From NCBI GenBank assembly GCA_017481185.1, contig JAFUPO010000383.1, positions 1 through 15,854 of the forward strand: DNA of 15,854 nucleotides. Reading direction: 5' to 3'. The notes under the pieces are model-generated. The model searched no databases, was not told where the DNA came from, and worked only from the letters and a program-made list of their open reading frames with translations. Of the stretch, positions 2,814-15,854 are shown one piece after another (the stretch's first letter is position 1; each line of letters starts with the position of its first letter). Origin of the DNA: Clostridia bacterium. GTDB taxonomy: Bacteria > Bacillota_A > Clostridia > Christensenellales > Aristaeellaceae. The position numbers and the translations under genes were made by a program.

Positions 2814-3641
2814 GTGGCAATGATCTTCTGTCCCCTCTACTCCGGGTCCAGCGGCAACGCGCTGTTTGTGCAGGCGGGGCGCACCCGGCTTTTGATCGAT
2901 GCAGGCTTAAGCGGCAAAACGGTGACCGAGGCCCTTAAGTCCATCGGCGTAGACCCTGAAACCTTGGATGGGATGCTCATCACCCATGAGCATACGGACC
3001 ATATCAAGGGCGCAGGGGTGCTTTGCCGCAAGTATCATTTGCCAGTATATGCCACCGTGGAAACCTGGCAGGCCATGGCCCATCATGTGGGGGAGATCCC
3101 ATTAGGGCTGCGGCGAGAGTTTCAAAAGGGGGACGAGTTCTATATCGGCGAGGCGGGGATTTCACCCTTCCCCATCCCCCATGACGCGGCGGGCCCCGTG
3201 GGCTATAGGGTATGGCATGGGGCTACCAGCCTGTCCACCGCTACGGACTTGGGGCATTTTACCAAGAGCGTACTGGAGCATATCGCTGGCAGCGACCTGG
3301 TGCTTTTGGAAAGCAACCATGACCCGGATATGCTGCGGATGAACCCTCATTATTCTCAGGCGCTGAAGAACCGCATCCTGTCCAACAAGGGGCATCTGAG
3401 CAACGAAAGCTGCGCCCTGGCCCTGGAGCAGCTGGTAAACACCGGCGTGCGCCATGTGGTATTGGGGCATTTGAGCGGTGAAAACAATCTGCCGGAATTG
3501 GCCTATAACACCTCCTGCCAGCACCTGACGGACCTGGGGCTCACCCCCGGGGTAGATGTCACCGTGGATATGGCCTGGCGGGACCGGGTGGGCCAGGTGT
3601 ACACCCTGGCGGATTCCTTTTGTGCGGGGGCCAGCTTATGA
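2814..3641 (+). CDS. walJ: WalJ (YycJ) family metallo-beta-lactamase fold hydrolase
   Basis: The product is about 275 residues. The N-terminal LYSGSSGNALFVQ segment and the metal-binding motif THEHTDHIKG (HxHxDH) at about residues 60-69 mark the YycJ/WalJ branch of the metallo-beta-lactamase fold. A later HDAAGPVGYRV segment, LLESNHDPDML and VVLGHLSGENN supply further metal ligands. WalJ is classically encoded with the WalRK cell-wall two-component system and is linked to replication and cell-wall coordination; its chemical substrate is unsettled. The start GTG at 2814 is 7 nt after AAGGAGG; an upstream GTG (2790) lies before that site and ATG 2820 is 13 nt from it. The stop overlaps the next start in ATGA, so translation is probably coupled. 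walR and walK are not adjacent: rplT lies directly upstream. Confidence 0.88.
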   Translation: MAMIFCPLYSGSSGNALFVQAGRTRLLIDAGLSGKTVTEALKSIGVDPETLDGMLITHEHTDHIKGAGVLCRKYHLPVYATVETWQAMAHHVGEIPLGLRREFQKGDEFYIGEAGISPFPIPHDAAGPVGYRVWHGATSLSTATDLGHFTKSVLEHIAGSDLVLLESNHDPDMLRMNPHYSQALKNRILSNKGHLSNESCALALEQLVNTGVRHVVLGHLSGENNLPELAYNTSCQHLTDLGLTPGVDVTVDMAWRDRVGQVYTLADSFCAGASL

Positions 3642-4525
3642 CAGCCCCGTGGCGGCTTTTGGCCGCGGAAAAGGCGCTTCTTGCGCTGGGGCTCATTGCC
3701 ATCGCCCGCACGGTGGCGGGCTGGTTCATGCCCTCGGTGGGGGAGGACTTTGGCCTCTACAGCCTTTTGCTCATCGGCCAGCAGCTGCTTTTGTACGGGC
3801 TGCCCGCCATTGTGCTCCATCCCCAGGCGCGGATTCCTACCCCCCGCCTGCCGGAGGAAGAGGACCGGCCCGGCCTCAAGCGGCTGGCAGCCATTGCCGG
3901 CACGGCAGCCCTCCACCAGGGGGCGCTGGTGCTGGTAACGCTGGTGTTTGGCCAGTGGCTGGCCTTTATGGGCCTGTCGGTGCGCGTCTCCCAACCGCCC
4001 CTGCCTCAAAACGGAGGACAGGCGGCGCTGGCTGTGCTGGCCCTGGCGGTTATCCCCGCTCTATGTGAAGAAAGCCTGTTCAGGGGCCGGGTGCTTAAGG
4101 GGCTGCAAAGCAGCTTTGCCCCTCGAACCAGCCTTTTTTTGACCGCCGGGCTCTTTGCCCTGATGCACGGGCAATTGGCTAATTTGCCCGCCCACCTGGC
4201 GGCGGGGTTCATGCTCACCGCCCTGTGCATGAAAGACGGGCTCATGGGGGCCATGGCGTATCATTTTACATTTAATCTGACTTCTCTGGCCCTGAGCCTG
4301 TGCGAAGGGGCCTTCCATTGGCAAGGGCTGCTCATGGCCAGCCCGCCCCTTTTGATGGCGCTGATGGGCTTGCTCATTTTGCTGGGCGTTTTATGTGCCT
4401 GGGCGCTTTTGCGGGGCCTGACCCTTGAGAAAGGCCCCCAAGCCTCCGCCCGGGCCTGGTACTGGGTGGGCGGCGTGGCCCTGTTGCTGCTGCCCGCGTA
4501 CCTGCTGGAGCTGCTGCCAAGGTAA
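3638..4525 (+). CDS. CPBP family intramembrane metalloprotease
   Basis: This is a hydrophobic protein of about 295 residues with roughly seven or eight predicted membrane segments. It carries all three motifs of the CPBP (Abi/Rce1-like) family: EESLFR with Glu144-Glu145 and Arg149, FALMH with Phe173 and His177, and HFTFN with His209 and Asn213. These residues form the active site inside the membrane. Family members cleave membrane or prenylated proteins and often act in self-immunity or envelope regulation; the substrate here is unknown. It starts at the ATG of an ATGA overlap with walJ, so the two are co-translated. A cluster of charged residues, PEEEDRPGLKR, separates the first membrane segments from the catalytic core. 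No partner peptide gene is visible nearby. Confidence 0.9.
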   Translation: MTAPWRLLAAEKALLALGLIAIARTVAGWFMPSVGEDFGLYSLLLIGQQLLLYGLPAIVLHPQARIPTPRLPEEEDRPGLKRLAAIAGTAALHQGALVLVTLVFGQWLAFMGLSVRVSQPPLPQNGGQAALAVLALAVIPALCEESLFRGRVLKGLQSSFAPRTSLFLTAGLFALMHGQLANLPAHLAAGFMLTALCMKDGLMGAMAYHFTFNLTSLALSLCEGAFHWQGLLMASPPLLMALMGLLILLGVLCAWALLRGLTLEKGPQASARAWYWVGGVALLLLPAYLLELLPR

Positions 4526-4531
4526 AGGGGA

Positions 4532-4602
4532 CGAGGTTTTTGCGAGGGGAGGACTTTTTTGAAAAAAAGTTCCTCCCCTCGCGCTCCCTTTTCAAAAAAC
4601 TT
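4532..4602 (-). repeat. Dispersed hairpin repeat, copy A
   Basis: On the minus strand this has a T-rich 5' block, then GGGAGCGCGAG, then a long hairpin ending CTCGCAAAAA. The stem pairs 4542-4553 with 4571-4582 (12 bp), a one-base bulge, and at least five more A-T pairs to the tip. It begins just after the CPBP stop codon. The outer GCGAG/CTCGC bases are shared with copies B, C and D but the inner arms are its own. It faces copy B head to head. Confidence 0.85.
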
Positions 4603-4673
4603 TATTTTTTTCACTATTACGATACACCCGGAAGCAACTGTGCAAAAGGCTGTGGCTTCACCGGGAATTGGGC

Positions 4674-4694
4674 CCAGGGCGAAACCCTGGTTTT
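4674..4694 (+). terminator. Possible weak terminator between repeats A and B
   Basis: CCAGGG (4674-4679), loop CGAAA and CCCTGG (4685-4690) form a 6-bp hairpin followed by TTTT. The T run is short and overlaps the 5' block of repeat B, so terminator function is uncertain. The rest of 4603-4673 holds no gene or clear promoter. Confidence 0.3.
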
Positions 4695-4763
4695 CTTGGG
4701 GAGAGAGCGCGAGAGAGGGGTGTTCTTTTTCCTAAAAGAACACCCCTCTCTCGCAAAAAGGAG
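4689..4763 (+). repeat. Dispersed hairpin repeat, copy B
   Basis: The block GGTTTTCTT with GAGAGCGCGAG precedes a perfect 21-bp stem (4709-4729 with 4734-4754) closed by the 4-nt loop TCCT. The right edge CTCGCAAAAAGGAG runs straight into the rlmH ribosome binding site. This is the longest uninterrupted stem of the family in the window. It is not followed by a T run on either strand, so it is not an ordinary terminator. Confidence 0.9.
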
Positions 4764-4772
4764 CTATACCAT

Positions 4773-5252
4773 ATGCAAGCGGCGATTGCCTGTGTGGGAA
4801 AAATTCGCGACAAGCATCTGCGGGGGGCCGCGGATGAATTTTTAAAGCGCCTGAGCCGTTTCGGCAAGGTGGAGGAAATGGAAGTGCAGGATCTGCCCGA
4901 GCCGGAAAACGCCGGGGAGGCCCTGTGCCGCCAGGTGATGGAAAAGGAAGGGGAGCGGCTTTTGAGCCGCATCAAGCCCGGGGATCATGTGATCACCCTA
5001 TGTATCGGCGGCAAAAAGTACACCAGCGAAGGCTTTGCCCAGCGCCTCCAAACCCTGGAAAACCAGGGCAAGGGCCGCATCGTGTTCGTGATCGGCGGGT
5101 CCCTGGGCCTAAGCCCGGCGGTTTTGCAGCGGGCGGACGAAACCCTTTCCCTTTCCGATATGACCTTCCCCCACCAATTGGCCCGGGTGCTTTTGCTGGA
5201 GCAGATTTATCGGGCGTGCAAGATCAATCATAACGAACGATACCATAAATGA
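4773..5252 (+). CDS. rlmH: 23S rRNA pseudouridine-1915 N3-methyltransferase RlmH
   Basis: RlmH is a SPOUT-class methyltransferase that uses S-adenosylmethionine to methylate pseudouridine 1915 of 23S rRNA in assembled 70S ribosomes. The 159-residue length is exactly that of the family. The cofactor knot is seen as FVIGGSLGLSPAV (residues 105-117) and LSLSDMTFPHQLARVLLLEQIYRA, and the protein ends YHK as expected. The usual Pro before that Tyr is Arg here (NERYHK). ATG 4773 is chosen because AAGGAG (4758-4763) lies 9 nt upstream and the protein then matches RlmH from its first residue. An upstream in-frame start would translate through repeat B. The neighbourhood walJ-protease-rlmH recalls the order yycJ-htrA-rlmH of other Firmicutes. 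Confidence 0.96.
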   Translation: MQAAIACVGKIRDKHLRGAADEFLKRLSRFGKVEEMEVQDLPEPENAGEALCRQVMEKEGERLLSRIKPGDHVITLCIGGKKYTSEGFAQRLQTLENQGKGRIVFVIGGSLGLSPAVLQRADETLSLSDMTFPHQLARVLLLEQIYRACKINHNERYHK

Positions 5253-5253
5253 A

Positions 5254-5294
5254 AGTGCAAAGTGCAGAGTGCAGAGAGATAAGTTTTGAATTGT
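5254..5294 (+). repeat. Left terminal heptad array of the S23 cassette
   Basis: Units of seven bases start at 5254, 5261, 5268, 5275 and 5282. The second and third are identical (AGTGCAG) and the fifth is AGTTTTG. The next six bases (AATTGT) match the opposite end at four to five positions. Confidence 0.85.
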
Positions 5295-5300
5295 TGGAAT

Positions 5301-5654
5301 TTAAATTTTGTTCTTAAGCGTTGTAACAGAAGAAACCAACATCCGGCGCAGTTCAAGGCAAGCGTCAGAGTATGCTTGCAGCTCTGATTCTGACAGGCTG
5401 CCTACATCTCGAAGCAGTTCAAGCCAGTATTCTGTTTCACCGCATTCTTTCAGCGCGATTTCAAGCTTGGAAATAAAGTCTTTGGGTCCGTGAGCGTACT
5501 GGGCTTCGTGGATGTTTGCGCCGATTGATGTTCCGCTTCGAAGGAGCTGACTGGTCAACGCCCCTTCCGAGCCTCGCTGCTTCAAGCTGCGGCAAAGAAA
5601 AACGATATCCCTGGCAAATTGCTTTGATTTTTTTCGCAAGATGCTATCAGCCAT
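5301..5654 (-). CDS. Four-helix-bundle protein of the S23 / IVS family
   Basis: This 117-residue, largely helical protein belongs to the S23 ribosomal-protein-like four-helix-bundle family (PF05635 type). Seen features are the N-terminal KSKQFARDIVFLCRSL helix, the conserved LTSQLLRSGTSIGANIHEAQYA motif (residues 38-58), then FISKLEIALKECGETEYWLELL. Relatives are encoded in intervening sequences of some 23S rRNA genes and in stand-alone cassettes, and a related fold (Avd) assists diversity-generating retroelements; the cellular function of stand-alone members is not established. AAAGGGAG lies about 9 nt before ATG 5654. No rRNA gene, reverse transcriptase or variable-repeat pair is present here. 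It is transcribed in the same direction as the DUF4340 gene upstream of it, so read-through from the ABC operon is possible. Confidence 0.88.
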   Translation of the reverse strand: MADSILRKKSKQFARDIVFLCRSLKQRGSEGALTSQLLRSGTSIGANIHEAQYAHGPKDFISKLEIALKECGETEYWLELLRDVGSLSESELQAYSDACLELRRMLVSSVTTLKNKI

Positions 5655-5681
5655 TATTGCCCACTCCCTTTGAAGCTTTTC

Positions 5682-5722
5682 ACAAGTTAAAACTCATCAC
5701 TCATCATTCTGCACTTATCACT
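5682..5722 (-). repeat. Right terminal heptad array of the S23 cassette
   Basis: Read on the minus strand from 5722, seven-base units are AGTGATA, AGTGCAG and two further related units, then AGTTTTA (5688-5694) and ACTTGT. It is inverted relative to the left array. The TAG stop of the DUF4340 gene overlaps its first unit. Confidence 0.85.
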
Positions 5723-7151
5723 AAAAACTCAAGCCGCCCTTAATAAGATAAAACAAATACACCCCATCCACCCCCACCGCGTTATGCAGGGCGTCGTAGG
5801 GGGTCAGGGTAATCACCCGGGTTGCGCCGTCTGTAAAGGTGAAGGCCAGGGTATCGGTCACGGCTTCACTGGGCTGATACCCGGCAGGGAGCCGCCCGCC
5901 CACGGAAACGGAGGCCAGGGCTGTTAAGCGGGATTCAAAGGCGTCCAGGCTCATGGCCTGGCCGTTTTTTGTTACCGTGGTGTCGTAAAGGATATGGCCC
6001 TCGGCGTCAGTCTCCAGCTCGTTGTTTTCCTTGACCCGCTCGGTGCGGGTAAGCTGGTATATATCCCCGTTGACGGTGAGGGAGGCCAGGTTTTCCACCG
6101 TCACGTCCCCGGCGGGCTTTAAGGGCAGGGTATCCCAGCCCAGGTCCGTTTCATAAAGGAAGGCCAGGCTCAGCCGTAAAAAGCGATAGATGCCCCCGCC
6201 CACGGCGCAGTAGCCGGTTTGGCCATCGCCCATGGGCCAAAGGAGGAGGCTGGTGGTTTTTTCGGCCTGGTCGGCGCTGGTCAAAACGCCGCCGTCCACC
6301 ACGCTGGCGCTGCCTGCGCCTTCATGAATGACCAGGCGGTACTGGTAATCCCCCAGGGATTCGCGGTTGGCGGAGGTATCGGCATTAACATACGCGCCCA
6401 GGCGGAAGTTTTCCAACGCGGAGAGAATGTTGGTGAACATTTCCCCGTCGGTGGGGTAAGATTGGGGATAAGTCATGTAAAAGCTGCCGCCCCGGCGCTG
6501 GAACTCATAAAGCAGCGCATCGCTGCTGTCATAGAGGGCCACCCGGTCAATGAGGGAGCCGGTGAGCCGCACCTGCTCCACGGGGTAAAGAACCCCTGCC
6601 TCCACCTGAAAGGTATCCAGAATATCATCATGAACCCGATAGAGGCGCTTGTCTCCGGCGATCATGAAATAATAGCCCGTTTCCAGGGTGAGAGGATCTC
6701 CGATATGGTAGGTGATGGCCTCCCCGTCGGTGTAGGCGATGGTCACCGTGCATTGGGGGGGATTCAGCCCAAAGGCGGCCAGGTCTTCTGGCGTTTCCTC
6801 TGCCAAGGTTTCCTCGGCGGAAAGGCTGGTGCAGGCGGTGAGGATGTCGCCGGTGAGGATGTCATCCACCCTAAAAGGGGTTTCCCCCTGATACCACAGG
6901 GCCCCCTCCTGATATAAGAGGGTGTAGTTCTCCCCTTCCGGCGCGGAAACGGTGATGGAAGAAAGCTGCGCTTCCTCCTTGGCCACCAGAGGGGTGGACT
7001 TGTCCGCCGTTTCCACCACAGCCGTCTCCTGGGGCCGGGTGACCCAATACAGCCCGCCGCCGATGACCAAAAGGGCCAGGATCAGCACGATCAGGATCAT
7101 ACCCTTCAGATGTTCAGGCCTGCGGCTGCGTTTTTTTTCAGGTATCTGCAT
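5721..7151 (-). CDS. DUF4340 domain protein of a Gld-like ABC system
   Basis: This membrane-anchored protein has about 476 residues. A basic N-terminus (KKRSRRPEHLK) precedes one membrane segment at about residues 17-39, then a long extracytoplasmic part. That part has repeated beta-rich segments such as LWYQGETPFRVDD, YFMIAGDKRLYRVHDDILDTF and FTFTDGATRVITLTPYD, which fit the DUF4340 family. DUF4340 genes commonly follow the GldG-like gene of ABC-2 type export operons; the transported substrate is unknown. The start at 7151 is set by AGGAGG with a 6-nt gap and the membrane-anchor position. An in-frame extension to 7283 would consist of Arg/Lys-rich translation of repeat E and is rejected. 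It is separated from its operon partner by 259 nt holding two hairpin repeats. Its TAG stop lies in the S23 cassette end. Confidence 0.82.
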   Translation of the reverse strand: MQIPEKKRSRRPEHLKGMILIVLILALLVIGGGLYWVTRPQETAVVETADKSTPLVAKEEAQLSSITVSAPEGENYTLLYQEGALWYQGETPFRVDDILTGDILTACTSLSAEETLAEETPEDLAAFGLNPPQCTVTIAYTDGEAITYHIGDPLTLETGYYFMIAGDKRLYRVHDDILDTFQVEAGVLYPVEQVRLTGSLIDRVALYDSSDALLYEFQRRGGSFYMTYPQSYPTDGEMFTNILSALENFRLGAYVNADTSANRESLGDYQYRLVIHEGAGSASVVDGGVLTSADQAEKTTSLLLWPMGDGQTGYCAVGGGIYRFLRLSLAFLYETDLGWDTLPLKPAGDVTVENLASLTVNGDIYQLTRTERVKENNELETDAEGHILYDTTVTKNGQAMSLDAFESRLTALASVSVGGRLPAGYQPSEAVTDTLAFTFTDGATRVITLTPYDALHNAVGVDGVYLFYLIKGGLSF

Positions 7152-7163
7152 GGGAGACCTCCT

Positions 7164-7333
7164 TTTTTGCGAGAACCCTTTCCTTTTGCGTAAAAAGAAA
7201 TCCCTTCGCAATAGTCGCCTGGCTCGCTGCCGCATCGCCACGCTCCTTTGCTCGTACCGCTTCCGCCTCGCTTCATCCGCCACAGGCGGCGCTCGGCTCC
7301 GCGCCCGCGCTCTCCTAAAGGAAAACCTTTTTT
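7164..7333 (-). repeat. Dispersed hairpin repeat, copy E, expanded
   Basis: On the minus strand it starts with the family block GGTTTTCCTTTAGGAGAGCG and ends with GGGTTCTCGCAAAAAAGG, almost the right arm of copy D. Between them lie about 95 nt of GC-rich sequence (with a small CCGCC/GGCGG hairpin at 7277-7289) and a decayed left arm near 7190-7209. The stem is therefore imperfect. The right edge merges with the DUF4340 ribosome binding site. Confidence 0.65.
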
Positions 7334-7336
7334 AAT

Positions 7337-7406
7337 CAAAGTTCTTTGAAGTGGGAGCGCGAGGGAGAAAGCTTGCTTTTAAGAAAGTTTCTCCCTCGCA
7401 AAAAAC
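7337..7406 (+). repeat. Dispersed hairpin repeat, copy C
   Basis: CAAAGTTCTTTGAAG and GGGAGCGCGAG precede a stem pairing 7359-7370 with 7388-7399 (12 bp), one bulged G and at least three further pairs. It ends CTCGCAAAAAA, about 11 nt from the GldG-like stop codon. Its 5' edge abuts that of copy E, so the two form a head-to-head doublet. Confidence 0.85.
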
Positions 7407-7410
7407 TCCG

Positions 7411-8856
7411 TCACCGATTCCTCCGGGGCACCAGCACCCAGATGGCGGCGATCACAACGCTCATGGGCACGGCCACCATGAGGGCAATGCCCAGGGTTTG
7501 GCTGCCGGTGCTCAGGCCCGGGCGCACGGCGGCCTTGGCGGCGATGTTCAGAGAAATGGCCTCCTGATCCAGGAGGTATTCAAGCATCTTCAAAAGGAAG
7601 GGCCCGTTATCGGTGGTGGCGTACATGGAGCTGTCGGTCATAAAGGTGGTGTTGCCGATGGCAAAAGCCCGGCTCAATTCCCCCGAGTCCATCATCCGCT
7701 GGGATAACAGCGCCAGGGGGAAGGGGCCCACCGGGTCATCGTCGCCCTGCTCGATGGAGAAGGTTTGGGTATCCAGGGGATGCAGATACGCCTGGTAGCC
7801 GGAATAGAGCACCGGCTCCACAGTGAGGCTGTTATCCGTGCCGGAGGGGTCTTCAAAGGCGCGGCACAGGGCCAGCAGCAGCGTATCCTGCTTGGATTCG
7901 ATCAGGTTGCGGGTGGGCAGGGTGGCCTGCATATAGGGCAAAAGGGCGATCTGCGAATCTTCATAATAGGTATTGCTCTCCTCCTTGCCCGCCACCACCA
8001 TGCCCTCACGGGGCACGACGCCGTAGGCCCGCATCAGCGCTGAAAAATTGGGCATATTCTCCACCGGCGTGGTTACATCGCAGGTGATGAACAGCGCGCC
8101 CCCCGCCTTGGCAAAGGCCATCACGGTTTCCAACTCATCGGCGCGGATGTCCACCTGGGGGCTGAGGATCATCAAAAGGCCCTCGGGATCCAGCTCGTCG
8201 CCGTTTTTCAGGTTCACCTGGTACAGGTCGTAATTATTGCGGGTCAGGTAATCGTAGAGAAAGGTCAGATCCGTGGTGCCCCACTCGTTATGGCCCTCAA
8301 GGATCATCACCGGGGGAATCTGCTGGCGGGTGACGTATACGATAGCCTCGGAGATCTCCTTTTCATAGGTGAGGCCCGACAGGGTGTAGCCCCCCAGGTC
8401 CATATCATAGCTCAATGATACGAAGGAGTTGAGAATTTTGTACCGATCCGTTGCCTCGCAGTACACCACCAGGCTGTTGGTGGTCAGGGCCGTATCCGAA
8501 TCCCCCTGAAACTTGGCAATAAGCCCGGGGTTCAAGGTGATGTCAATCTGCTCCCAGGTGACCAGGTCGGATTGGGCCTGGTACCGGTTCAACAGCTCAA
8601 AGAGCGGTTCATCTTCTTCACCGGATCTGAACAGCGCATAAATATGCACCGGGGTGGTCAATTCGTTCAGGATGGCCCGGGTGGTTTCCGACTGGGTGGT
8701 AACGCCGTTAAAGGAATAGTCCACCCGCCAGCCCTTTTGCACCTCCAGGGCATCCATCAGACTGACGATTAAAATCGCTGCCGCCAGGAACAGGATAAGC
8801 AGCAACAGGGCAAACCGGCCATGGCGGCGCTTGGGGTCCTTTAAAAACTTCATCAT
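7411..8856 (-). CDS. GldG-like ABC auxiliary membrane protein
   Basis: This protein of about 481 residues has an N-terminal membrane segment (residues 14-36), a large extracytoplasmic domain and a C-terminal membrane segment (about 452-474) before RRNR. The domain resembles the GldG / ABC-2 auxiliary (IFT52-like) family. Seen features are TRAILNELTTPVHIYALF after the first membrane segment, VIYVTRQQIPPVMILEGHNE, and LLMILSPQVDIRADELETVMAFAKAGGALFITCD. In Bacteroidetes GldG works with GldA and GldF in gliding; in Clostridia the role is unknown, probably export or envelope remodelling. Its ATG overlaps the permease stop as ATGA, so the three upper genes are tightly coupled. It sits between the permease and, after two repeats, the DUF4340 gene. 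Confidence 0.82.
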   Translation of the reverse strand: MMKFLKDPKRRHGRFALLLLILFLAAAILIVSLMDALEVQKGWRVDYSFNGVTTQSETTRAILNELTTPVHIYALFRSGEEDEPLFELLNRYQAQSDLVTWEQIDITLNPGLIAKFQGDSDTALTTNSLVVYCEATDRYKILNSFVSLSYDMDLGGYTLSGLTYEKEISEAIVYVTRQQIPPVMILEGHNEWGTTDLTFLYDYLTRNNYDLYQVNLKNGDELDPEGLLMILSPQVDIRADELETVMAFAKAGGALFITCDVTTPVENMPNFSALMRAYGVVPREGMVVAGKEESNTYYEDSQIALLPYMQATLPTRNLIESKQDTLLLALCRAFEDPSGTDNSLTVEPVLYSGYQAYLHPLDTQTFSIEQGDDDPVGPFPLALLSQRMMDSGELSRAFAIGNTTFMTDSSMYATTDNGPFLLKMLEYLLDQEAISLNIAAKAAVRPGLSTGSQTLGIALMVAVPMSVVIAAIWVLVPRRNR

Positions 8857-9566
8857 GCGTTTTCCCTCCAGCGCCGTGCGTCCAGGCAGTAAATGGCCGC
8901 CGCCACAAAGAAGGCGATAAACGCCAGATAATAGCAGATGGCCGCGTAAGAAAGCTGCCCCATCAAAAAGGGTTCATACCGGGTGTACAGGCTCACAAAG
9001 TCCAGCATTTGGGCGACCCAGCTGACCGTGATCTGGGGGGTGACCATATCCATCAGCCACAGGGCCAAATTGACGCCAAAGGCGCTGACCGCCGCAGTCA
9101 CCTGGGTTTTGCACAGGCCGGAGATAAACAGGTCCAGGGCCAGAAAGGCGCAGCCCTGGAGAATAAACCCGCCGTAACCCACCATGATTTCAGAAGGGTA
9201 GACCTGCCCATAGATGGCAATCACCCCCATGAACACCAGGGACAGCGCCACCGTGAGGATCATCACCGCCGCTGCGGCCAGGTACTTGCCCAAAACCACC
9301 CCCGCCACACAAACAGGGCTGGTGAGCAAAAGCTGATCGGTTTTCTGGTGCCGCTCCTCAGCCAAGAGGCGCATGGTTAAAACAGGGGAGAGGAGCATCC
9401 AGATAAAGGACATCTGCCCCAGAAAAGTGAGGATATCCGAGGAGCGCAGAGCCAGGTTGTACATATAGAACATGAGCCCGGACAGGGCCAGGAACACGCC
9501 CATGAACACATAGCCCACAGGGGTCAGAAAATAGCTTTGCATCTCCCTTTTCCAAATGGCGATCAC
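8853..9566 (-). CDS. ABC-2 type permease, GldF-like
   Basis: This integral membrane protein of 237 residues has about six membrane segments. It carries the typical ABC-2 permease stretch SPVLTMRLLAEERHQKTDQLLLTSPV (about residues 59-84), which lies near the ATPase contact region, followed by a long second half that is almost wholly hydrophobic. It forms the membrane channel for the ATPase encoded just upstream. GTG is used as start and its first base group overlaps the ATPase stop (GTGA, 9563-9566). The next gene starts in an ATGA overlap, so ATPase, permease and GldG-like protein should be made in fixed proportions. The substrate is not deducible. Confidence 0.88.
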   Translation of the reverse strand: MIAIWKREMQSYFLTPVGYVFMGVFLALSGLMFYMYNLALRSSDILTFLGQMSFIWMLLSPVLTMRLLAEERHQKTDQLLLTSPVCVAGVVLGKYLAAAAVMILTVALSLVFMGVIAIYGQVYPSEIMVGYGGFILQGCAFLALDLFISGLCKTQVTAAVSAFGVNLALWLMDMVTPQITVSWVAQMLDFVSLYTRYEPFLMGQLSYAAICYYLAFIAFFVAAAIYCLDARRWRENA

Positions 9567-10501
9567 GCCTCCACCTCCTCATGGGCAGCCGTAGCCTCCA
9601 GAAAGATCTCCTCCAGGCTGTCAGCCAGGGGGGTCATGCGCAGGATGGGCGCATCCAACCCCGTCAAAAGGGTGAACAGGCGGCGGGGCAGCTCCTGGGT
9701 GTCACATTCCAAAATGGCCTCGGTAACCTGGGTATCAAAGGTGGGCAGCACCTTTAAGCGGGTCACCCCGGGGAGCCCCTTCAGGGCTGGGGCCAGGCGC
9801 TTTTCGTTCATGGCGATGGACAGGCGATATTTGCGGGGATGGGCTTCCATGCGGGTCAAATCCACCTCCCGTACCATGCGGCCCTCATGGAGGATGATGA
9901 CCCGCTGGCAAAGCTGCTGCACCTCCTGCAAAATGTGGGAGGAAAAAATAATGGTGTGGGTCTTGCCCAATTCTTTAATCAGGCTGCGGATTTCCACCAC
10001 CTGCTTGGGGTCCAGGCCCACGGTGGGCTCGTCCAGCACCAATACCTCCGGCGCGCCGCACAGGGCCTGAGCGATGCCCGCCCGCTGGCGGTAGCCCTTG
10101 GATAAATGCCCCAGGGGGCGGCGGGCCACGTCGGTCAAGCCGGTGGTTTTCAAGATCTCTGCCACATGATGGGGGATGGCCTTTTTAGCCACCTCCTTGA
10201 GCTGACAGCAGAATTTTAAATAGCTTTCCACGGTCATCTCCTCATACAGGGGCGGCTTTTCGGGCAGGTAGCCCATAAGCCGCTTGGCCTGGCGGGGGTT
10301 TGTGAGCAGGTCAAACGCCCCCACCGTAACGCTGCCCGAGCTGGGGGGCAGATACCCGGTGAGGATATTCAGCGTGGTTGTTTTGCCTGCGCCGTTCTGG
10401 CCCAACAGCCCGATAATCTGGCCCCGGGGCGCGGTGAAGGACAAATCCTTCAGGGCGTGGGCAGCGCCGTAGCGCTTGGTGATGTGGGATAAGGCGATCA
10501 T
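9563..10501 (-). CDS. ABC transporter ATP-binding protein, GldA-like
   Basis: This cytoplasmic ATPase of 312 residues energises the permease encoded next. It has Walker A GQNGAGKT (34-41), Q-loop region YLPEKPPLY (78-86), signature LSKGYRQR (133-140, the variant typical of ABC-2 exporters), Walker B VLVLDEPT (153-160) and the switch His189 in SSH. A C-terminal domain of about 90 residues follows, ending ILRMTPLADSLEEIFLEAT, usual for drug or gliding-type ABC-2 ATPases. It is first in a four-gene operon running leftward. An extended -10 promoter and a palindrome lie directly upstream, and AGGAAG precedes the ATG by 5 nt. Substrate unknown. Confidence 0.93.
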   Translation of the reverse strand: MIALSHITKRYGAAHALKDLSFTAPRGQIIGLLGQNGAGKTTTLNILTGYLPPSSGSVTVGAFDLLTNPRQAKRLMGYLPEKPPLYEEMTVESYLKFCCQLKEVAKKAIPHHVAEILKTTGLTDVARRPLGHLSKGYRQRAGIAQALCGAPEVLVLDEPTVGLDPKQVVEIRSLIKELGKTHTIIFSSHILQEVQQLCQRVIILHEGRMVREVDLTRMEAHPRKYRLSIAMNEKRLAPALKGLPGVTRLKVLPTFDTQVTEAILECDTQELPRRLFTLLTGLDAPILRMTPLADSLEEIFLEATAAHEEVEA

Positions 10502-10513
10502 ACTAACTTCCTT

Positions 10514-10530
10514 TCGGCCTATCAGGCCGA
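10514..10530 (-). promoter_or_regulatory. Palindrome at the start point of the ABC operon
   Basis: TCGGCCT, 3-nt centre, AGGCCGA forms a perfect 7-bp dyad lying at the expected transcription start, between the -10 element and the ribosome binding site. It could be a repressor operator or a 5' stem that protects the mRNA. Which one cannot be told from sequence. Confidence 0.55.
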
Positions 10531-10534
10531 TTCC

Positions 10535-10543
10535 ATTATAACA
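10535..10543 (-). promoter_or_regulatory. Extended -10 promoter of the ABC operon
   Basis: On the minus strand TGTTATAAT gives a perfect TATAAT with the TG of an extended -10 element. No good -35 is seen at the right distance (ACACCT), consistent with dependence on the extended -10. Confidence 0.72.
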
Positions 10544-10609
10544 GATGCCGCAACCCCAGGTGTGAATAAACTGTAAAAGGTCAGGGTTTCGCCCCTTGAA
10601 AAAACCGGG

Positions 10610-10615
10610 TATAAT
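10610..10615 (+). promoter_or_regulatory. -10 element of the nfo promoter
   Basis: A perfect TATAAT lies 30 nt before the nfo ATG. The -35 at 17 nt spacing is poor (TTTCGC, 10587-10592). It diverges from the ABC operon promoter about 70 bp away. Confidence 0.6.
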
Positions 10616-10645
10616 ACAAGCAGTTTACATAAAGGAGTTATACAT

Positions 10646-11473
10646 ATGCTTATCGGCTGCCATTTGTCATCTTCCAAAGGATACCTGCACATGGGCAAGG
10701 AGGCACTGGCCCTGGGCGGCAACACCTTTCAGTTTTTCACCCGCAACCCCCGAGGCGGGGCAGCCAAGGCCATTGACGAAAAGGACGTGGCCGCCTTCAA
10801 TCATCTTTGCCGCGAGGAGGGCATCCCCGTTATTCTGGCCCATGCCCCCTATACCCTTAACCCCTGCGCTAAGGACGAGGGCATCCGCACCTTTGCCCGC
10901 AATACCTTTCAGGATGATCTGCGCCGCCTGGAGTATACCCCGGGGAGCCTTTACAACTTTCATCCGGGCAGCCACGTGGGCCAGGGCGCGCAGGAGGGCG
11001 TGCGCCTGATCACCCAAATGCTCAACGATCTGCTTTATCCCCAGATGACCACCACCGTGCTCCTTGAAACCATGGCGGGCAAGGGCAGCGAGGTGGGCCG
11101 CTCCTTCCAAGAGCTGCGGGCCATTATGGACGGCGTACACTTAAAGGATAAATTGGGCGTATGTCTGGACACCTGCCATGTGTACGATGCAGGTTACGAC
11201 ATTGTAAACGACCTGGAGGGGGTGCTTTTGCACTTTGATGAAATCGTTGGCCTGGATAAGCTCAAGGCCATCCACCTGAACGATTCCAAAAACCCTTTCC
11301 AGAGCCACAAGGACCGGCACGAAAAGATCGGGGAAGGGTCCATCGGCCTTGAGGCCTTTGAACGCATCATCAACCACCCCCGCCTAAAGCACCTGCCCTT
11401 TTTTCTGGAAACCCCCAATGAGCTGGAGGGCTATGCCCGGGAGATAGCGCTTTTGAAGGGGCTGCGAAAGTAA
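10646..11473 (+). CDS. nfo: Deoxyribonuclease IV (AP endonuclease)
   Basis: Endonuclease IV cuts DNA 5' to abasic sites and removes damaged 3' ends in base-excision repair. The 275-residue protein is normal in length and keeps all nine zinc ligands of the family: His66, His106, Glu141, Asp175, His178, His210, Asp223, His225 and Glu255. Recognisable segments are [11 protein letters not shown] at the start, [50 protein letters not shown] and FFLETPN. AAAGGAG lies 8 nt before the ATG. It has its own promoter, diverges from the ABC operon, and is followed by a long non-coding stretch before dnaE. No terminator is apparent after it. Confidence 0.97.
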
Positions 11474-11516
11474 AGGGGCTCTTCCCGTTTCGTACAAATA
11501 GAACAAATTTACGTCT

Positions 11517-11600
11517 TGCATACATCTGCTTGCAAATGCGTGCAGATGTTTTCATGAGCTTGCATCTGCCAGCAAGTGCTTGCAAATGCGCGCAGATGCG
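11517..11600 (+). repeat. Decamer tandem array downstream of nfo
   Basis: About eight in-register 10-base units run from 11517 with consensus TGCNTGCANA. The best units are TGCTTGCAAA at 11527 and 11577 and TGCGTGCAGA / TGCGCGCAGA at 11537 and 11587; the unit at 11547 is decayed. The 21-base stretches at 11528-11548 and 11578-11598 differ at one position. GCAGATG and CATCTGC also alternate in orientation. The rest of 11474-11516 shows nothing recognisable. Confidence 0.75.
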
Positions 11601-11605
11601 CCCGT

Positions 11606-11652
11606 AATCCAATCCAAATCCGAATCTAAATCCAAATCCCAATCCGAACCCC
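11606..11652 (+). repeat. Hexamer tandem array upstream of dnaE
   Basis: After a short AATCC at 11606, six units of form AATCYN start every six bases from 11611 to 11641, and a last AACCCC follows at 11647. The minus strand is a G-rich GGATTN repeat. It lies 30 nt before the dnaE -35 element. Confidence 0.85.
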
Positions 11653-11681
11653 CAGAGGCGGTACGGATTTCAAAAAAGGCA

Positions 11682-11710
11682 TTGACAAATTCCGTTTTAG
11701 GGATTAATAT
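11682..11710 (+). promoter_or_regulatory. Upstream promoter of dnaE
   Basis: A perfect TTGACA at 11682-11687, a 17-nt spacer and TAATAT at 11705-11710 (four of six). It would give a dnaE leader of about 70 nt. Confidence 0.65.
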
Positions 11711-11747
11711 AACAACGCCTCCTGCTCTCGCAAAACCTTTCCCCCTA

Positions 11748-11756
11748 TGGTATAAT
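11748..11756 (+). promoter_or_regulatory. Downstream extended -10 promoter of dnaE
   Basis: TGGTATAAT is a perfect TATAAT with an extended -10 TG. It lies 31 nt before the dnaE start and would give a very short leader that still includes AAAGGAG (11774-11780). Confidence 0.65.
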
Positions 11757-11787
11757 AAGCCTAACCTACACCCAAAGGAGAATCCCT

Positions 11788-14700
11788 ATGGCTTTTGCAC
11801 ACCTGCACCTGCACACAGAATACAGCCTGCTGGACGGCGCCTGCCGCATCAAGCCCCTGATGAAGCGCCTCAAAGAAATGGGCATGACCCATTGCGCCAT
11901 TACCGACCATGGGGTGATGTATGGCGTGGTTGACTTTTACCAGGCCTGCCAGGATAACGGCATCCATCCGGTGATCGGCTGCGAGGTGTATGTGTGCCAG
12001 GACCGGTTTGACAAAACCTATAAGAGCCGGGAATACAGCCACCTGATCCTCCTGTGCCAGAACAACACCGGCTACAAAAACCTGATGTATCTGGTGAGCC
12101 AGGGCTTTCTGGAGGGGTATTATTACCGCCCCCGCATCGACTACCGCCTTCTTGCCCAGCACGCTGAGGGCCTGATTTGCATGAGCGCCTGCCTCTCCGG
12201 CGACTTGCCTAAGTATCTCTTGGATGGCCAGTGGGAAACGGCCAGGCAGTATGTTTGTGAGATGCAAAAGATCTTTGGCAAGGAAAACTTTTACATTGAG
12301 ATCATGGATCACGGCATCCCGGAGGAAAAGCAGGTGCTGCCCCGGCTGATCCAGCTGGCCCGGGAGATGGAGGCGCCCCTGTGCGCCACCAACGACTGCC
12401 ACTACATCGAAAAGAAGGATGCTGACGCCCAGGAAGTGCTCATGTGCATCCAGACCGGCAAAACCCTGGACGACGAGACCCGTATGCGCATGGAAACCCG
12501 GGAATTGTATGTAAAGAGCGAGGAGGAAATGCGCCAGCTTTTTCCCAACTGCCCGGACGCCATTGAAAATTCGCATTTGATCGCCCAGCGCTGCCATGTG
12601 GATTTTGATTTTAAAACCGTGCATTTGCCCAAGTACCCGGTGCCGGAGGGGGAAACGGCCCTCTCCATGCTCACCCGGCTGTGCCGCGAGGGGTTGGAAA
12701 AGCGCTACCCCGGCCAGTGCCACGAGGGCACGGAGCCCTATAAGCGCCTGCAATACGAATTGGACACCATTGCCACCATGGGGTATGTGGATTACTTTCT
12801 CATCGTGTGGGATTTTATCAACTACGCCAAGCAAAACGGCATCATGGTGGGCCCCGGCCGGGGCTCGGGCGCAGGCTCCATCGTGGCCTACACCTTGGGC
12901 ATCACCCTGCTGGATCCCCTCAAGTACAACCTGCTCTTTGAGCGGTTTTTGAACCCGGAGCGGGTATCCATGCCCGATCTGGATATTGACTTTTGCTACG
13001 AGCGCCGCCAGGAGGTTATCGATTATGTGGCCCGCAAGTACGGCCATGACCATGTGAGCCAGATCATCACCTTCGGCACCATGGCTGCCCGGGGCGTAAT
13101 CCGTGATGTGGGCCGGGTCTTGGGCATGAGCTACCAGGAAACGGATCAGATCGCCAAAATGGTGCCCTTTGACCTGGGCATGACCCTGGAAAAGGCTCTG
13201 AAGCTCAACCCCGAACTGCGCCACGCCTACGAGGATTCTGACGAGGTGAAAAACCTCATCGACACCGCCATGACCCTGGAGGGTATGCCCCGCCATGCCT
13301 CAACCCACGCGGCGGGCGTTCTCATCACCTCTCAGCCGGTGATGAACTATGTGCCCTTGCAGACCAACGACGAGGTGATCACCACCCAGTTCCCCATGGG
13401 CACCATTGAGCGGCTGGGCCTTTTGAAAATGGACTTTTTGGGCCTCAGAACCCTCACCGTCATCCGGGACACCCTGGATATGCTCAAGGAAACGGGCGTT
13501 GACTTAAAGCCTGAAGACATCCCCATGGATGACCCTCAGGTTTACGAAATGATCTCCCAAGGGGATACGGACGGCGTGTTCCAATTGGAAGGCAGCGGGA
13601 TGCGCAACTTTCTCACCAGCATGAAGCCTGAAAACTTTGAGGATATTATCGCCGCCATCTCCCTCTACCGCCCCGGCCCCATGGACTCCATCCCCCGCTA
13701 CATTGCCGGCAAGCACGACCCTTCCACCGTGAAATACGCCACGGAAAAGCTGCGCCCCATCCTGGATGTGACCTACGGCTGCATGGTGTACCAGGAGCAG
13801 GTAATGCAGATCGTGCGGGATCTGGCAGGCTACTCCCTGGGCCGCTCAGACCTTATGCGCCGGGCCATGGCCAAAAAGAAAAAGGACGTAATGGCCAAGG
13901 AGCGGGAGTACTTCATCTTCGGCATGAAGGACGAAAACGGGAATCAATTGATCCCCGGCTGCGTGAACAACGGCGTCAGCGAAAAGGTGGCCGCGCAGAT
14001 TTATGACGAAATGAGCGCCTTCGCCTCCTACGCCTTCAACAAGAGCCACGCCGCCGCCTACGGCGTGGTAGCTGTGCAAACCGGCTGGCTCAAGCGTCAC
14101 TATCCGGTGCCCTTTATGGCGGCCATTATGAACAGCGTGTATGGCAACCCCGGCAAGATCGCCGCCTACATTCAATACTGCCGCAGCCATGATATTCCCA
14201 TCCTGCCCCCCAATGTGAACCACTCCGCTTGGCGCTTCACCGTGGACCGGGATGCCAAGGGTAAATTAGGCATCCGCTTCGGCCTGGGGGCTGTGAAAAA
14301 CGTGGGCCAGGCTGCCATTGACTCGGTGGTTAAGGCCCGCAGGCAGGCCCCCTTCAAGGATATTTTTGATTTCTGCCAGCGGGTGGACCCTGAGGCCATC
14401 AATAAGCGAGTGGTGGAGAGCCTCATCATGGCCGGCGCTTTCGACGGCATGGGCGCAACCCGTGTGCAGCTGCTGGCGGTGTACGATTCCGCCCTGGACG
14501 GGGCTGCCGCCCGCAAAAAGCAGAATATCGCCGGGCAGGTATCCCTCTTTGACCTGGATGGCATCGGCCTTGCGCCCCCTGCCAATCCAGAACTGCCGGA
14601 TATGCCGGAGCATCCTCTCAGAGCCCGGCTGGCCATGGAAAAGGAGATGACCGGCGTGTACATCTCCGGCCATCCCCTGGATGAGCACGCGGCCCTGCTT

Positions 14701-15330
14701 AACCAGTTGGATTGCAACACCGCCTTTGTGCAGGAGCTTTCAGAGCGGCCCGACCGGGGCCTGGCCATGGACGGTATGCAGGTGGAAATGGGCGGCATCC
14801 TCACCGAGGCCAAGGGCAAGGCCACCAAAAAGGGCGCGTTCATGGGCTTTATCACCCTGGAGGATTTAACCGGGCAGATTGAGGGCCTGGTTTTTCCCAA
14901 GGTGTATGAAAAATATCAGGGCCTCTTGGCAGCGGATGATTTGGTGGTGCTTGCGGGCAAGCTCTCCATCCGGGAGGATGAGGACACCAAGATATTGGTG
15001 GACAAGGTGACGCCCCTATCCCAGTGGCAGCCCAAGGGCAAAGGGCCCCTGGGCCGCCCCCAGGTGAAAATCAAGGCGGAGCCCCCCAAGCCCCCAAGCC
15101 CCAAGGATGCGCCGGTAAAGCTCTTTCTTCGCCTGGAAAGACGCCAGATGGAAAAGACAAAGCCCATCCTGGCCCTGACCCCCGGCCCCTGCCCGGTGTA
15201 CTTTCATTTGCCCCAGGAAAACATGACCCTCCTGGCCCCGGAGGTTTTGTGGGTCAGCCAGCAGGACAGCCTCACCCAGCGGCTTCAAGAGGAGCTGGGG
15301 GCGGCAAATGTGAAATGGGTTGTGAAGTGA
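11788..15330 (+). CDS. dnaE: DNA polymerase III alpha subunit, DnaE type
   Basis: This is a replicative DNA polymerase of 1180 residues, normal for DnaE and distinct from the exonuclease-containing PolC. Order of domains: an N-terminal PHP domain with HLHLHTEYSLLDG (residues 5-17), TDHG (39-42), GCEVY (64-68) and NDCHYIE (202-208); a palm with GPGRGSGAGSIVAY (near 355), catalytic PDLDIDF (Asp397 and Asp399) and KMDFLGLR (Asp549); YRPGPM and the fingers; a helix-hairpin-helix region; an OB fold at about 1000-1072; a Pro/Lys-rich linker at about 1080-1110; and a short C-terminal domain. The metal-binding PHP residues look intact, which in other DnaE proteins goes with 3'-5' proofreading. Low-GC Firmicutes usually also have PolC; none is in this window. 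It is monocistronic, with two candidate promoters and AAAGGAG 7 nt before the ATG. Confidence 0.97.
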   Translation: MAFAHLHLHTEYSLLDGACRIKPLMKRLKEMGMTHCAITDHGVMYGVVDFYQACQDNGIHPVIGCEVYVCQDRFDKTYKSREYSHLILLCQNNTGYKNLMYLVSQGFLEGYYYRPRIDYRLLAQHAEGLICMSACLSGDLPKYLLDGQWETARQYVCEMQKIFGKENFYIEIMDHGIPEEKQVLPRLIQLAREMEAPLCATNDCHYIEKKDADAQEVLMCIQTGKTLDDETRMRMETRELYVKSEEEMRQLFPNCPDAIENSHLIAQRCHVDFDFKTVHLPKYPVPEGETALSMLTRLCREGLEKRYPGQCHEGTEPYKRLQYELDTIATMGYVDYFLIVWDFINYAKQNGIMVGPGRGSGAGSIVAYTLGITLLDPLKYNLLFERFLNPERVSMPDLDIDFCYERRQEVIDYVARKYGHDHVSQIITFGTMAARGVIRDVGRVLGMSYQETDQIAKMVPFDLGMTLEKALKLNPELRHAYEDSDEVKNLIDTAMTLEGMPRHASTHAAGVLITSQPVMNYVPLQTNDEVITTQFPMGTIERLGLLKMDFLGLRTLTVIRDTLDMLKETGVDLKPEDIPMDDPQVYEMISQGDTDGVFQLEGSGMRNFLTSMKPENFEDIIAAISLYRPGPMDSIPRYIAGKHDPSTVKYATEKLRPILDVTYGCMVYQEQVMQIVRDLAGYSLGRSDLMRRAMAKKKKDVMAKEREYFIFGMKDENGNQLIPGCVNNGVSEKVAAQIYDEMSAFASYAFNKSHAAAYGVVAVQTGWLKRHYPVPFMAAIMNSVYGNPGKIAAYIQYCRSHDIPILPPNVNHSAWRFTVDRDAKGKLGIRFGLGAVKNVGQAAIDSVVKARRQAPFKDIFDFCQRVDPEAINKRVVESLIMAGAFDGMGATRVQLLAVYDSALDGAAARKKQNIAGQVSLFDLDGIGLAPPANPELPDMPEHPLRARLAMEKEMTGVYISGHPLDEHAALLNQLDCNTAFVQELSERPDRGLAMDGMQVEMGGILTEAKGKATKKGAFMGFITLEDLTGQIEGLVFPKVYEKYQGLLAADDLVVLAGKLSIREDEDTKILVDKVTPLSQWQPKGKGPLGRPQVKIKAEPPKPPSPKDAPVKLFLRLERRQMEKTKPILALTPGPCPVYFHLPQENMTLLAPEVLWVSQQDSLTQRLQEELGAANVKWVVK

Positions 15331-15372
15331 GCGTTAAGCGTTTAGAACTAAGCGTTTTAGTTTGTGAAAGGC
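15330..15372 (+). repeat. Solo end of an S23-type heptad cassette
   Basis: Seven-base units start at 15330, 15337, 15344 and 15351 (AGCGTTA, AGCGTTT and related), and the first begins with the last A of the dnaE TGA stop. The following TTTTAGTTTGTGAAAGGC matches the inner part of the right S23 cassette end (TTTTAACTTGTGAAAAGC) with only three transitions. No S23 gene or opposite end follows, so it looks like a remnant. Confidence 0.6.
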
Positions 15373-15439
15373 AAACGCCTTGGCCTGCCCCCCTCCGGAT
15401 GGCAGCGGCGTACCGCGTTACCTTTCTCCTATGATAAAT

Positions 15440-15500
15440 GGTTTTCTTTAGGGAGAGCGCGAGAACCCCTTTCTTTTGCAAAAGAAAGGGGTTCTCGCAA
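15440..15500 (+). repeat. Dispersed hairpin repeat, copy D
   Basis: GGTTTTCTTTAGGGAGAGCG and the GCGAG base lead into a perfect palindromic stem of about 18-19 bp (15459-15477 with 15480-15498) with loop near GC. It ends CTCGCAA, 19 nt from the stop codon of the convergent PFL gene. Between this and the cassette remnant (15373-15439) I see no gene or terminator. Confidence 0.9.
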
Positions 15501-15516
15501 TATATGTGGTCGTTCC

Positions 15517-15854
15517 TCAGTTCCTCAAACTATGCAGGGGGGCTGGGATGCGGCCGCCCCGGCGGATGAAGTCGTCGTTTTTATAGGTATTTACAGGCAT
15601 GATGGGGGCGTAGCCCAAGAGCCCGCCGAAGTTTACGGTTTCCCCTGCCTTTTTACCCCAGGCGGGGATGATGCGCACGGCAGTGGTTTTGTTGTTGACC
15701 ATGCCGATGGCCGCCTCGTCGGCAATGATGCCGGAGATGGTTTCGGCTGAGGTGTCGCCAGGCACGGCGATCATATCCAGGCCCACGGAGCACACGCAGG
15801 TCATGGCCTCCAGCTTTTCCAGGGTCAGGGCCCCGCAGGCGGCAGCCTCGATCA
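15517..15854 (-). CDS. PFL / UPF0210 (DUF711) family protein, C-terminal part
   Basis: This is the last 112 or so residues of a protein whose start lies beyond the window edge; full-length relatives have about 450. The family tail is clear: [32 protein letters not shown], then [41 protein letters not shown], and the ending [14 protein letters not shown]. The reading frame is open to the edge without a break. The protein is related by sequence to pyruvate-formate-lyase-like annotations ('PFL family') but its biochemical role is unproven; an ACT-domain protein gene is its usual upstream partner and would lie outside the window. It converges on dnaE, with a cassette remnant and hairpin copy D between them. 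Confidence 0.9.

Follow-up and report, generated by a model that had tools for sequence, protein, structure and literature searches.

A dispersed hairpin family of Clostridia whose 5' block mirrors the left arm: candidate alternate-strand intrastrand DNA triplexes at gene ends

Results

Five hairpin loci and their genes

The window analysed here (15,854 nucleotides of contig JAFUPO010000383.1, from a Clostridia bacterium of the Aristaeellaceae) is a piece of a metagenomic contig and carries five loci, A to E, of a dispersed hairpin family in which a block lies 5' of a hairpin. An initial annotation had described these hairpins and regarded the 5' block as shared. We find that the block differs between copies just as the arms do and, as that annotation did not foresee, that it is a mirror of the hairpin left arm, i.e. 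reversed and not complemented. Pfam matches in the window include a metallo-beta-lactamase-fold protein, a CAAX protease, RlmH, a DUF4340 protein, an ABC transporter with an auxiliary protein and an AP endonuclease; translation initiation factor 3, ribosomal protein L20 and DnaE were named by eye from open reading frame (ORF) translations.

All five loci are present where they had been placed, and they comprise four intact hairpins (A, B, D and E) and one interrupted copy (C). The motif GAGCGCGAG occurs four times in the window compared to 0.11 expected occurrences, and four were reached in 0/200 shuffles. The four intact hairpins fold with 17-21 pairs and, together with short flanks, fold far better than shuffled sequences (z -5.2, -7.2, -4.2 and -7.8). 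The end piece of copy C (7160-7220) folds no better than shuffles (z -0.8; 43/200). A scan of the window, and of the window only, against Rfam gave no match above the gathering score.

Copy A lies on the minus strand, with a hairpin of 41 nt (left arm, loop and right arm; 4542-4582) whose CTCGC end is 16 nt past the stop of the CAAX-protease-like gene at 3620-4525, and with a mirror block (4583-4607) that is imperfect (13/15 aligned). Copy B is on the plus strand: its block (4688-4708) reads in reverse as GAGAGAGGGGTTCTTTTG against the left arm GAGAGAGGGGTGTTCTTTT, 17/17 aligned with 2 nt skipped, and is followed by a perfect 21-bp hairpin of 46 nt (4709-4754) with its CTCGC end 18 nt ahead of the rlmH ATG (4773). 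Copy C (7164-7333, minus) has kept the block (7309-7327) and the right arm (7169-7190; by eye 17 nt ahead of the DUF4340 gene start at 7151), and about 120 nt of other sequence (7191-7308, minus) stands in place of the left arm. By eye, its reversed block GAGAGGATTTCCTTTTGG has TTTCCTTTTG in common with the right-arm complement; this block is outside the sets counted below. The interruption lengthens the DUF4340 ORF upstream by an arginine-rich stretch and may be another dispersed repeat. On the plus strand, copy D has an imperfect block (7338-7358; 13/15 aligned) and a hairpin of 41 nt (7359-7399) with its CTCGC end 11 nt past the stop of an ABC-transporter-associated gene (7411-8856, minus). 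Copy E, also on the plus strand, has a block (15440-15458) whose reversed TTTCTTTTG equals the TTTCTTTTG of the left arm, with a lower part that is imperfect (11/15 aligned), and a hairpin of 40 nt formed by a perfect inverted repeat of 20 nt (15459-15498), its CTCGC end separated by 18 nt from the stop codon of a minus-strand ORF of 95 aa (15517-15804). The CTCGC end of every copy in the window is therefore 11-18 nt from an ORF start or stop, which for copy E is that of the 95-aa ORF only. Two gaps of the window are bounded by head-to-head pairs of copies; by eye, CTCC flanks the C/D pair on both sides and no clear flank of this kind surrounds the A/B pair.

Paired change in the two arms

As originally proposed, arm sequences vary from copy to copy and the two arms of each copy match: with eight unique hairpins, the summed pairing energy was lowest for the own-arm assignment among all 40,320 assignments. 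Pair-by-pair counting was done with 12 hairpins of one genome, 8 of them distinct. In this genome, 13/18 pairs are invariant, two vary by G-U and one has an unpaired cell; two-sided change is limited to pairs 10 and 11 (5/8 sequences each, with CG, GC, AU and UA), a restriction that had not been anticipated. The covariation score was 0.218 compared to 0.073 ± 0.017 in shuffles (0/500) and dropped to 0.013-0.067 when the partner was slid, and 10 cells showed two-sided change compared to 3.3 in shuffles (0/500). Thus, the paired change exceeds chance by the arm-assignment test and by the covariation score, and the arms keep the structure while the sequence changes.

The 5' block mirrors the left arm

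Copies were gathered by a search for the seed GAGNGCGAG combined with a filter on folding, which misses decayed copies such as C, and only from genomes with the GAGCGCGAG seed or a near-seed. This gave 75 copies, two of which (L218 and L221) are without 36 nt upstream; the remaining 73 collapse to 56 unique copies from 12 genomes or records, and block partners were permuted within each genome. Copy G130:C55 and the extras of a looser pattern scan are listed copies outside the mirror tests. The seed fixes the first 3-6 aligned block/arm positions of each copy. Among the 56 unique copies, block and left arm are identical at 779/820 aligned positions; beyond six bases, which is the fairer measure given the seed, the identity is 466/503, compared to 2,436/2,883 when blocks are exchanged among copies of the same genome with different arms. 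The mirror score sum was 550 compared to 484.5 ± 11.5 with permuted partners (0/20,000), and past the first six bases 402 compared to 369.4 ± 6.1 (0/20,000). Reading the block in the direct orientation gave a weaker signal (609/20,000 permutations) and reading it as reverse complement gave none (9,758/20,000). The elements average a mirror score of 9.9 with 53/56 scoring at least 8, and control hairpins from the same loci average 3.7 with 2/81 strands scoring at least 8. The mirror run was longer than the direct run in 38 copies, shorter in 5 and tied in 13. A direct-repeat or switch reading of the block (0.004-0.06 overall, 0.17-0.42 in the window) was superseded by the mirror reading.

The mirror idea arose from the first copies, and it was therefore tested on a validation set of 24 copies, 23 of them unique, in five genomes that came to light later (G574-G578). 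In this set the mirror sum was 171 compared to 149.5 ± 5.1 (0/20,000; direct reading 361/20,000), the mirror run was longer than the direct run in 22 copies, shorter in one and tied in one, and the identity was 191/197 compared to 727/895 with swapped blocks. Sorting the blocks into 32 distinct types gave a mirror sum of 261 compared to 199.7 ± 7.2 (0/50,000). Examples of elements are the TTTCTTTT type of G089, the CTTTTG type of G575 and window copy B. Two adjoining copies on contig 76 of G030 (L166, 47-191) have longer upper arms and a poor mirror match and are possibly decayed or of another subtype.

These data bear on the origin of the matched arms, for which the initial annotation had offered selection or copying of one arm from the other. 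The paired change is real, and template switching at quasi-palindromes would, with no selection at all, yield matched and locally different arms as observed. Copying yields complements or direct repeats and never mirrors, however, and the mirror permutation tests on the first set and on the validation set disfavour this explanation, as do the confinement of two-sided changes in the one genome to two junction pairs and the persistence of an unpaired base on the right arm of the copies in L060 and G018. We therefore regard template switching as the sole source of arm matching as highly improbable. Because copying makes no mirrors, keeping the mirror while sequences change requires some constraint under which bases are read in mirror order, as they are in triplex pairing.

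A skip at the purine-to-pyrimidine junction

Block and arm share a pyrimidine run in 55 copies. In 52 of these, the block up to this run is 1-2 nt shorter than the left arm: the duplex length minus the block length is +1 in 27 copies and +2 in 25. In the validation set it is +2 in 24/24. The skipped nucleotides sit at the purine/pyrimidine junction of the arm and are the freely varying pairs of the genome counted pair by pair; where the block runs from GAGAGGG straight into TTT, ten different hairpin dinucleotides stand at the junction. Two genomes of the order sample described below fit by eye, G341 with the run GATTTT in block and arm and a difference of 2 nt, and G233 with an 11-nt mirror.

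Both the matching of pyrimidine runs to arms and the skip bear on the idea that each copy forms two adjacent hairpins by Watson-Crick and G.U pairing, in which the block pairs with GGGAGAGC ahead of the main hairpin and the mirror arises incidentally, from a pyrimidine run lying opposite a purine run. RNA folding does give a small hairpin of at least 5 bp in 65/80 blocks, and it is present in the four intact window copies. With DNA parameters, however, it appears in only 12/80 blocks, and copies past stop codons would be transcribed in the other orientation, in which G.U becomes A.C. Two adjacent hairpins predict neither the pyrimidine-run/arm matching nor a steady skip of 1-2 nt; we consider this explanation very unlikely.

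Placement at gene ends

The frames used to analyse placement ran between successive stops and were 120 codons or longer; some of them may not be genes. In 54/73 copies the CTCGC end is 2-27 nt (median 14) from the opposite-strand stop of such a frame, and in 13/73 a start codon with a ribosome-site-like motif lies within 45 nt of the CTCGC end; in total, a stop or start is found at the CTCGC side in 64/73 copies and at the block side in 13. In the window, A, D and E lie past stops and B and C ahead of starts; C is outside the 73, and E, whose ORF is too short at 95 aa, was scored as a miss. The element is thus a marker of gene ends, in most cases of 3' ends.

Like intrinsic terminators, the copies are GC-rich hairpins a few bases past a stop. 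By eye, the gene-sense flank after the hairpin is GCTCTCCC followed mostly by purines, and because it is without the U tract that sets terminators apart, a standard intrinsic terminator is unlikely. Alternatively, the hairpin could act as an RNA element at mRNA 3' ends that blocks 3' exonucleases, perhaps with the help of an RNA triplex in the pyrimidine motif that the complementary strand would form (CUCUCCC over GAGAGGG). The 54/73 copies just past stops and the folds of 15-21 pairs are what such an element would show, and pyrimidine-type intrastrand triplexes occur in RNA according to Holder 2015 (PMC4666352). The upper segment of the third strand would then be of the purine type (A.A-U and G.G-C), however, which by the same source does not form in RNA, yet this segment co-varies; moreover, the 13/73 copies close to start codons are in the opposite orientation. 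In our view an RNA element is an unlikely explanation of the family.

Distribution and the question of mobility

The dispersed family that had been surmised from the window does have copies elsewhere, in the phage contig L060 and in genomes of related gut Clostridia. Viral contigs were scanned with several patterns, and hits were judged from sequence: none of 36 stretches from the first scan is a true hairpin, one of eight from the second (L060) is real, the third (seven stretches) again gave only L060, and a scan with an A/D-type block gave three stretches, none of them real. L060 has terminase, portal and major head genes and four copies, which lie at the edges of long repeat-filled gaps on the margins of composite repeats of ~380 bp. 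The repeat-rich stretches of L060 (1068-1946, 3321-3873, 4411-5093 and 6330-6854, ~525-880 bases each) are three gaps between structural genes and the region from the last gene to the contig end; runs of inverted AATTCGTAATTCG / AATTACGCATTACG units stand at two gap edges (1050-1090 and 3813-3853). A DNA similarity search of phage records with the composite repeat found none. A second repeat (TTTCGCCTCTGCGGAGGCGACCAAAGGGCTTTCC..., 1335-1515 and 4552-4618) was the only match of the whole contig among phage records; it matches stretches with a mean identity of 81-96% in eight records, all derived from human faeces. Among relatives of the capsid protein of L060, one carries the name Aristaeellaceae, a possible home of the element.

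A search of genome contigs with a single protein gave 18 stretches and no relative. An alignment of 17 DUF4340 proteins led to loci in 22 metagenome-assembled genomes (MAGs), of which one, G018, matched a first pattern and has two copies by a second, and another, G002, has four copies; a looser pattern matched 19/23 records, mostly by chance among the matches listed. Of 200 genomes sampled from the family of G018, 17 matched, and by eye ten have real hairpins and seven do not. The ten carriers have 2-14 copies each among the matches listed, and in five carriers a looser pattern gave 6-24 matches each among those listed, nearly all hairpins by eye; carrier genomes have up to about 20 copies each. 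Sampling the order gave 17/396 matches, five real by eye (G018, G089, G084, G341 with 13 counted copies, and G233) and 12 not; the pattern matched 9/29 genomes in the genus of G089, 4/18 in the genus of G130, and in a class-wide sample 1/391, G018 itself. From these samples of family, order, genera and class we conclude that the elements are patchily distributed and occur mostly within a single Clostridia family.

Dispersed copies, the head-to-head pairs in two window gaps and the position of the L060 copies at the edge of composite repeats would suit a mobile repeat of the REP/RAYT or MITE type, in which a transposase would act on the hairpin, transposition would spread the copies and gene-end placement would result from the loss of other insertions. 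In line with this, 0/24 related phage loci (portal 47-65% identical) have AGCGCGAGAGG, and by eye the gaps in the stretches beside portal (130 nt before, 150 nt after) are short wherever the flank is present. However, four of the ten carriers (G030, G130, G181 and G018) gave no Y1 transposase match, although MAGs may be incomplete, GAGCGCGAG occurs in 0/6 fetched Y1 loci of 1.6-3.4 kb, and no target duplication was established. RAYT/IS200 as a linked partner is thus not supported. Mobility leaves the mirror co-variation unexplained, and as an explanation of the family we hold it to be quite unlikely, although it may coexist with a triplex fold.

Two observations concern other features. In the window (5250-5722), a gene with a 23S rRNA intervening-sequence protein domain (PF05635) is flanked by short repeats of the TGCAGAG type, which stand in inverted orientation on either side of it (arms 5254-5294 and 5682-5722). 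In L059 (300-380), the sequence upstream of a gene named by eye as tryptophanyl-tRNA synthetase-like resembles a T-box leader.

Discussion

Combining the mirror, skip and covariation data, we suggest that the elements are alternate-strand intrastrand DNA triplexes with a possible barrier or boundary role at gene ends, which is the best explanation overall and a probable one. By sequence alone, the copies have the three tracts of an intrastrand triplex motif (classes I-IV of Holder 2015), with a mirror identity above chance and above that of other hairpins, and at 466/503 positions beyond the seed this identity yields G.G-C, A.A-T, T.A-T or C.G-C triplets.

In the predicted fold, which we consider likely, each copy would be a single-strand fold-back of three tracts, mirror block, left arm and right arm: (i) the two arms would pair as an ordinary hairpin and the block would fold back antiparallel to the left arm, (ii) in the lower stem, which reads 5' to 3' as third strand, purine arm and pyrimidine arm (class I), the block purines (GGGAGAG) would lie in the major groove against GAGAGGG of the left arm, antiparallel and with G.G-C and A.A-T triplets, and (iii) in the upper stem, which reads as third strand, pyrimidine arm and purine arm (class IV), the block pyrimidines (CTTTTC, TTTTCTTT and others, 5' to 3') would lie parallel to the purine right arm with T.A-T and C+.G-C triplets. 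These orientations, antiparallel for the purine motif and parallel for the pyrimidine motif, are those given in Holder 2015 (PMC4666352). At the purine-to-pyrimidine step the third strand would switch the strand that it reads, skipping 1-2 base pairs, and the skipped pairs would be free to vary because they need Watson-Crick complementarity alone. The geometry of a third strand that crosses a purine-pyrimidine junction from one strand to the other is known for synthetic oligonucleotides. Since RNA does not adopt the purine motif (as stated by Holder 2015, PMC4666352), the constraint on both halves points to a triplex in DNA rather than in RNA, with the qualification that the purine half varies little.

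Such a triplex would form a barrier or boundary that is specific to one strand, in most cases shortly behind a stop codon, while the DNA is single-stranded during replication or transcription. This predicted barrier role is tentative and rather doubtful; a DNA-level barrier or boundary is our first guess for the role and an RNA 3'-end role our second.

The elements resemble the PIT, BoxC and TM intrastrand triplex motifs described from E. coli, cyanobacteria and others (Holder 2015, PMC4666352, citing Hoyne and Maher 2000), which are likewise short and dispersed, place on a single strand a hairpin and, beside it, a third tract of mirror type, use the G.G-C / A.A-T purine motif and also occur as inverted pairs. 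The E. coli motif, as described there, is of class II (Y-R-RH), with the third strand at the 3' side, short loops and a near-constant sequence, whereas here the third strand lies on the 5' side and serves both class I and class IV, with a skip of 1-2 bp at the switch, and the sequence varies between copies with mirror co-variation. The class II consensus of BoxC / PIT / TMECO (CCCTCNCCC N3-6 GGGNGAGGG N3 GGGNGAGGG) does not describe the copies in a by-eye comparison made with no pattern search: the listed copies read 5' to 3' as block, purine arm and pyrimidine arm, with an upper pyrimidine/purine stem. The ITxF search of Holder 2015 (PMC4666352) works with stems of a single class and with loops of 1-6 nt; with hairpins of 36-49 nt and lower tracts ~18 nt or more apart across the upper hairpin, the copies fall outside the loop rule, and the search as described there should not list them. 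The family is a variant of the PIT/BoxC kind. The earlier statement that no named family is known is fair for the sequence and does not extend to the kind, which is known; the variant is new. A search of the literature, with subscription journals mostly outside its coverage, found no description of such a family.

Alternate-strand triplexes with synthetic oligonucleotides are known (PMC3660596 and PMC4807104), and as proposed for the family described here, one third strand reads purines on one strand and then on the other across a junction. In these sources the triplexes are designed or peptide-induced and intermolecular, whereas here they would be natural, intramolecular and repeated. Likewise, the stem-loop families of REP/BIME type (Cozzuto 2008, PMC2267715) are dispersed hairpin repeats, many of them intergenic; they were gathered by whole-repeat sequence similarity, whereas the arms here vary with compensation, and unlike in REP/RAYT systems no Y1 transposase lies beside the copies examined.

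Several points weigh against a triplex. The E. coli motif forms a triplex in vitro, and in vivo footprinting gave no support for stable formation (Holder 2015, PMC4666352); in our elements the turn between block and hairpin is tight, and triplex and function are both inferred from the sequence. The copies share ancestry, so counts such as 0/20,000 are not probabilities, and the gapped alignment inflates identity, with swapped partners still reaching 81-84%. The validation genomes share a genus with G089, a member of the first set. The direct reading, too, exceeds its permutations (609 and 361/20,000; 3/20,000 for the pooled validation set; at the level of the 32 types 194 compared to 165.3 ± 5.3, 0/50,000), because many pyrimidine runs are nearly symmetric, and in the window alone the direct-reading comparison is not significant (0.17-0.42). 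Only 12/32 types have their own partner as row maximum. Purine tracts vary little, and the purine half rests on B, L212, L216:3333 and L220. Window copies A, D and E are imperfect mirrors, one L166 copy has no shared run at all, and three copies (window D, L177 and L216:1248) depart from the skip rule. In the genome with pair-by-pair counts, pairs with two-sided change are no more numerous than in shuffles (2 compared to 1.9). Finally, 9/73 copies have no gene end on the CTCGC side, and the family is patchy, with no match in 20/29 and 14/18 genomes of two carrier genera.

Whether intrastrand triplexes form and matter in bacteria was left open by Holder 2015 (PMC4666352); the E. coli motif is near-constant in sequence and, therefore, its conservation cannot separate structure from sequence. 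In the family described here, differing copies obey one mirror rule with a skip of 1-2 nt, which would be the triplex counterpart of compensatory base-pair change, and the family offers natural variants, matched as well as swapped, that can be tested both in vitro and in cells. That natural alternate-strand intrastrand triplexes are kept by selection in bacterial and phage genomes appears to us somewhat probable. If so, their mirror co-variation would count as evidence from evolution that triplets of bases, and not base pairs alone, are important in living cells.

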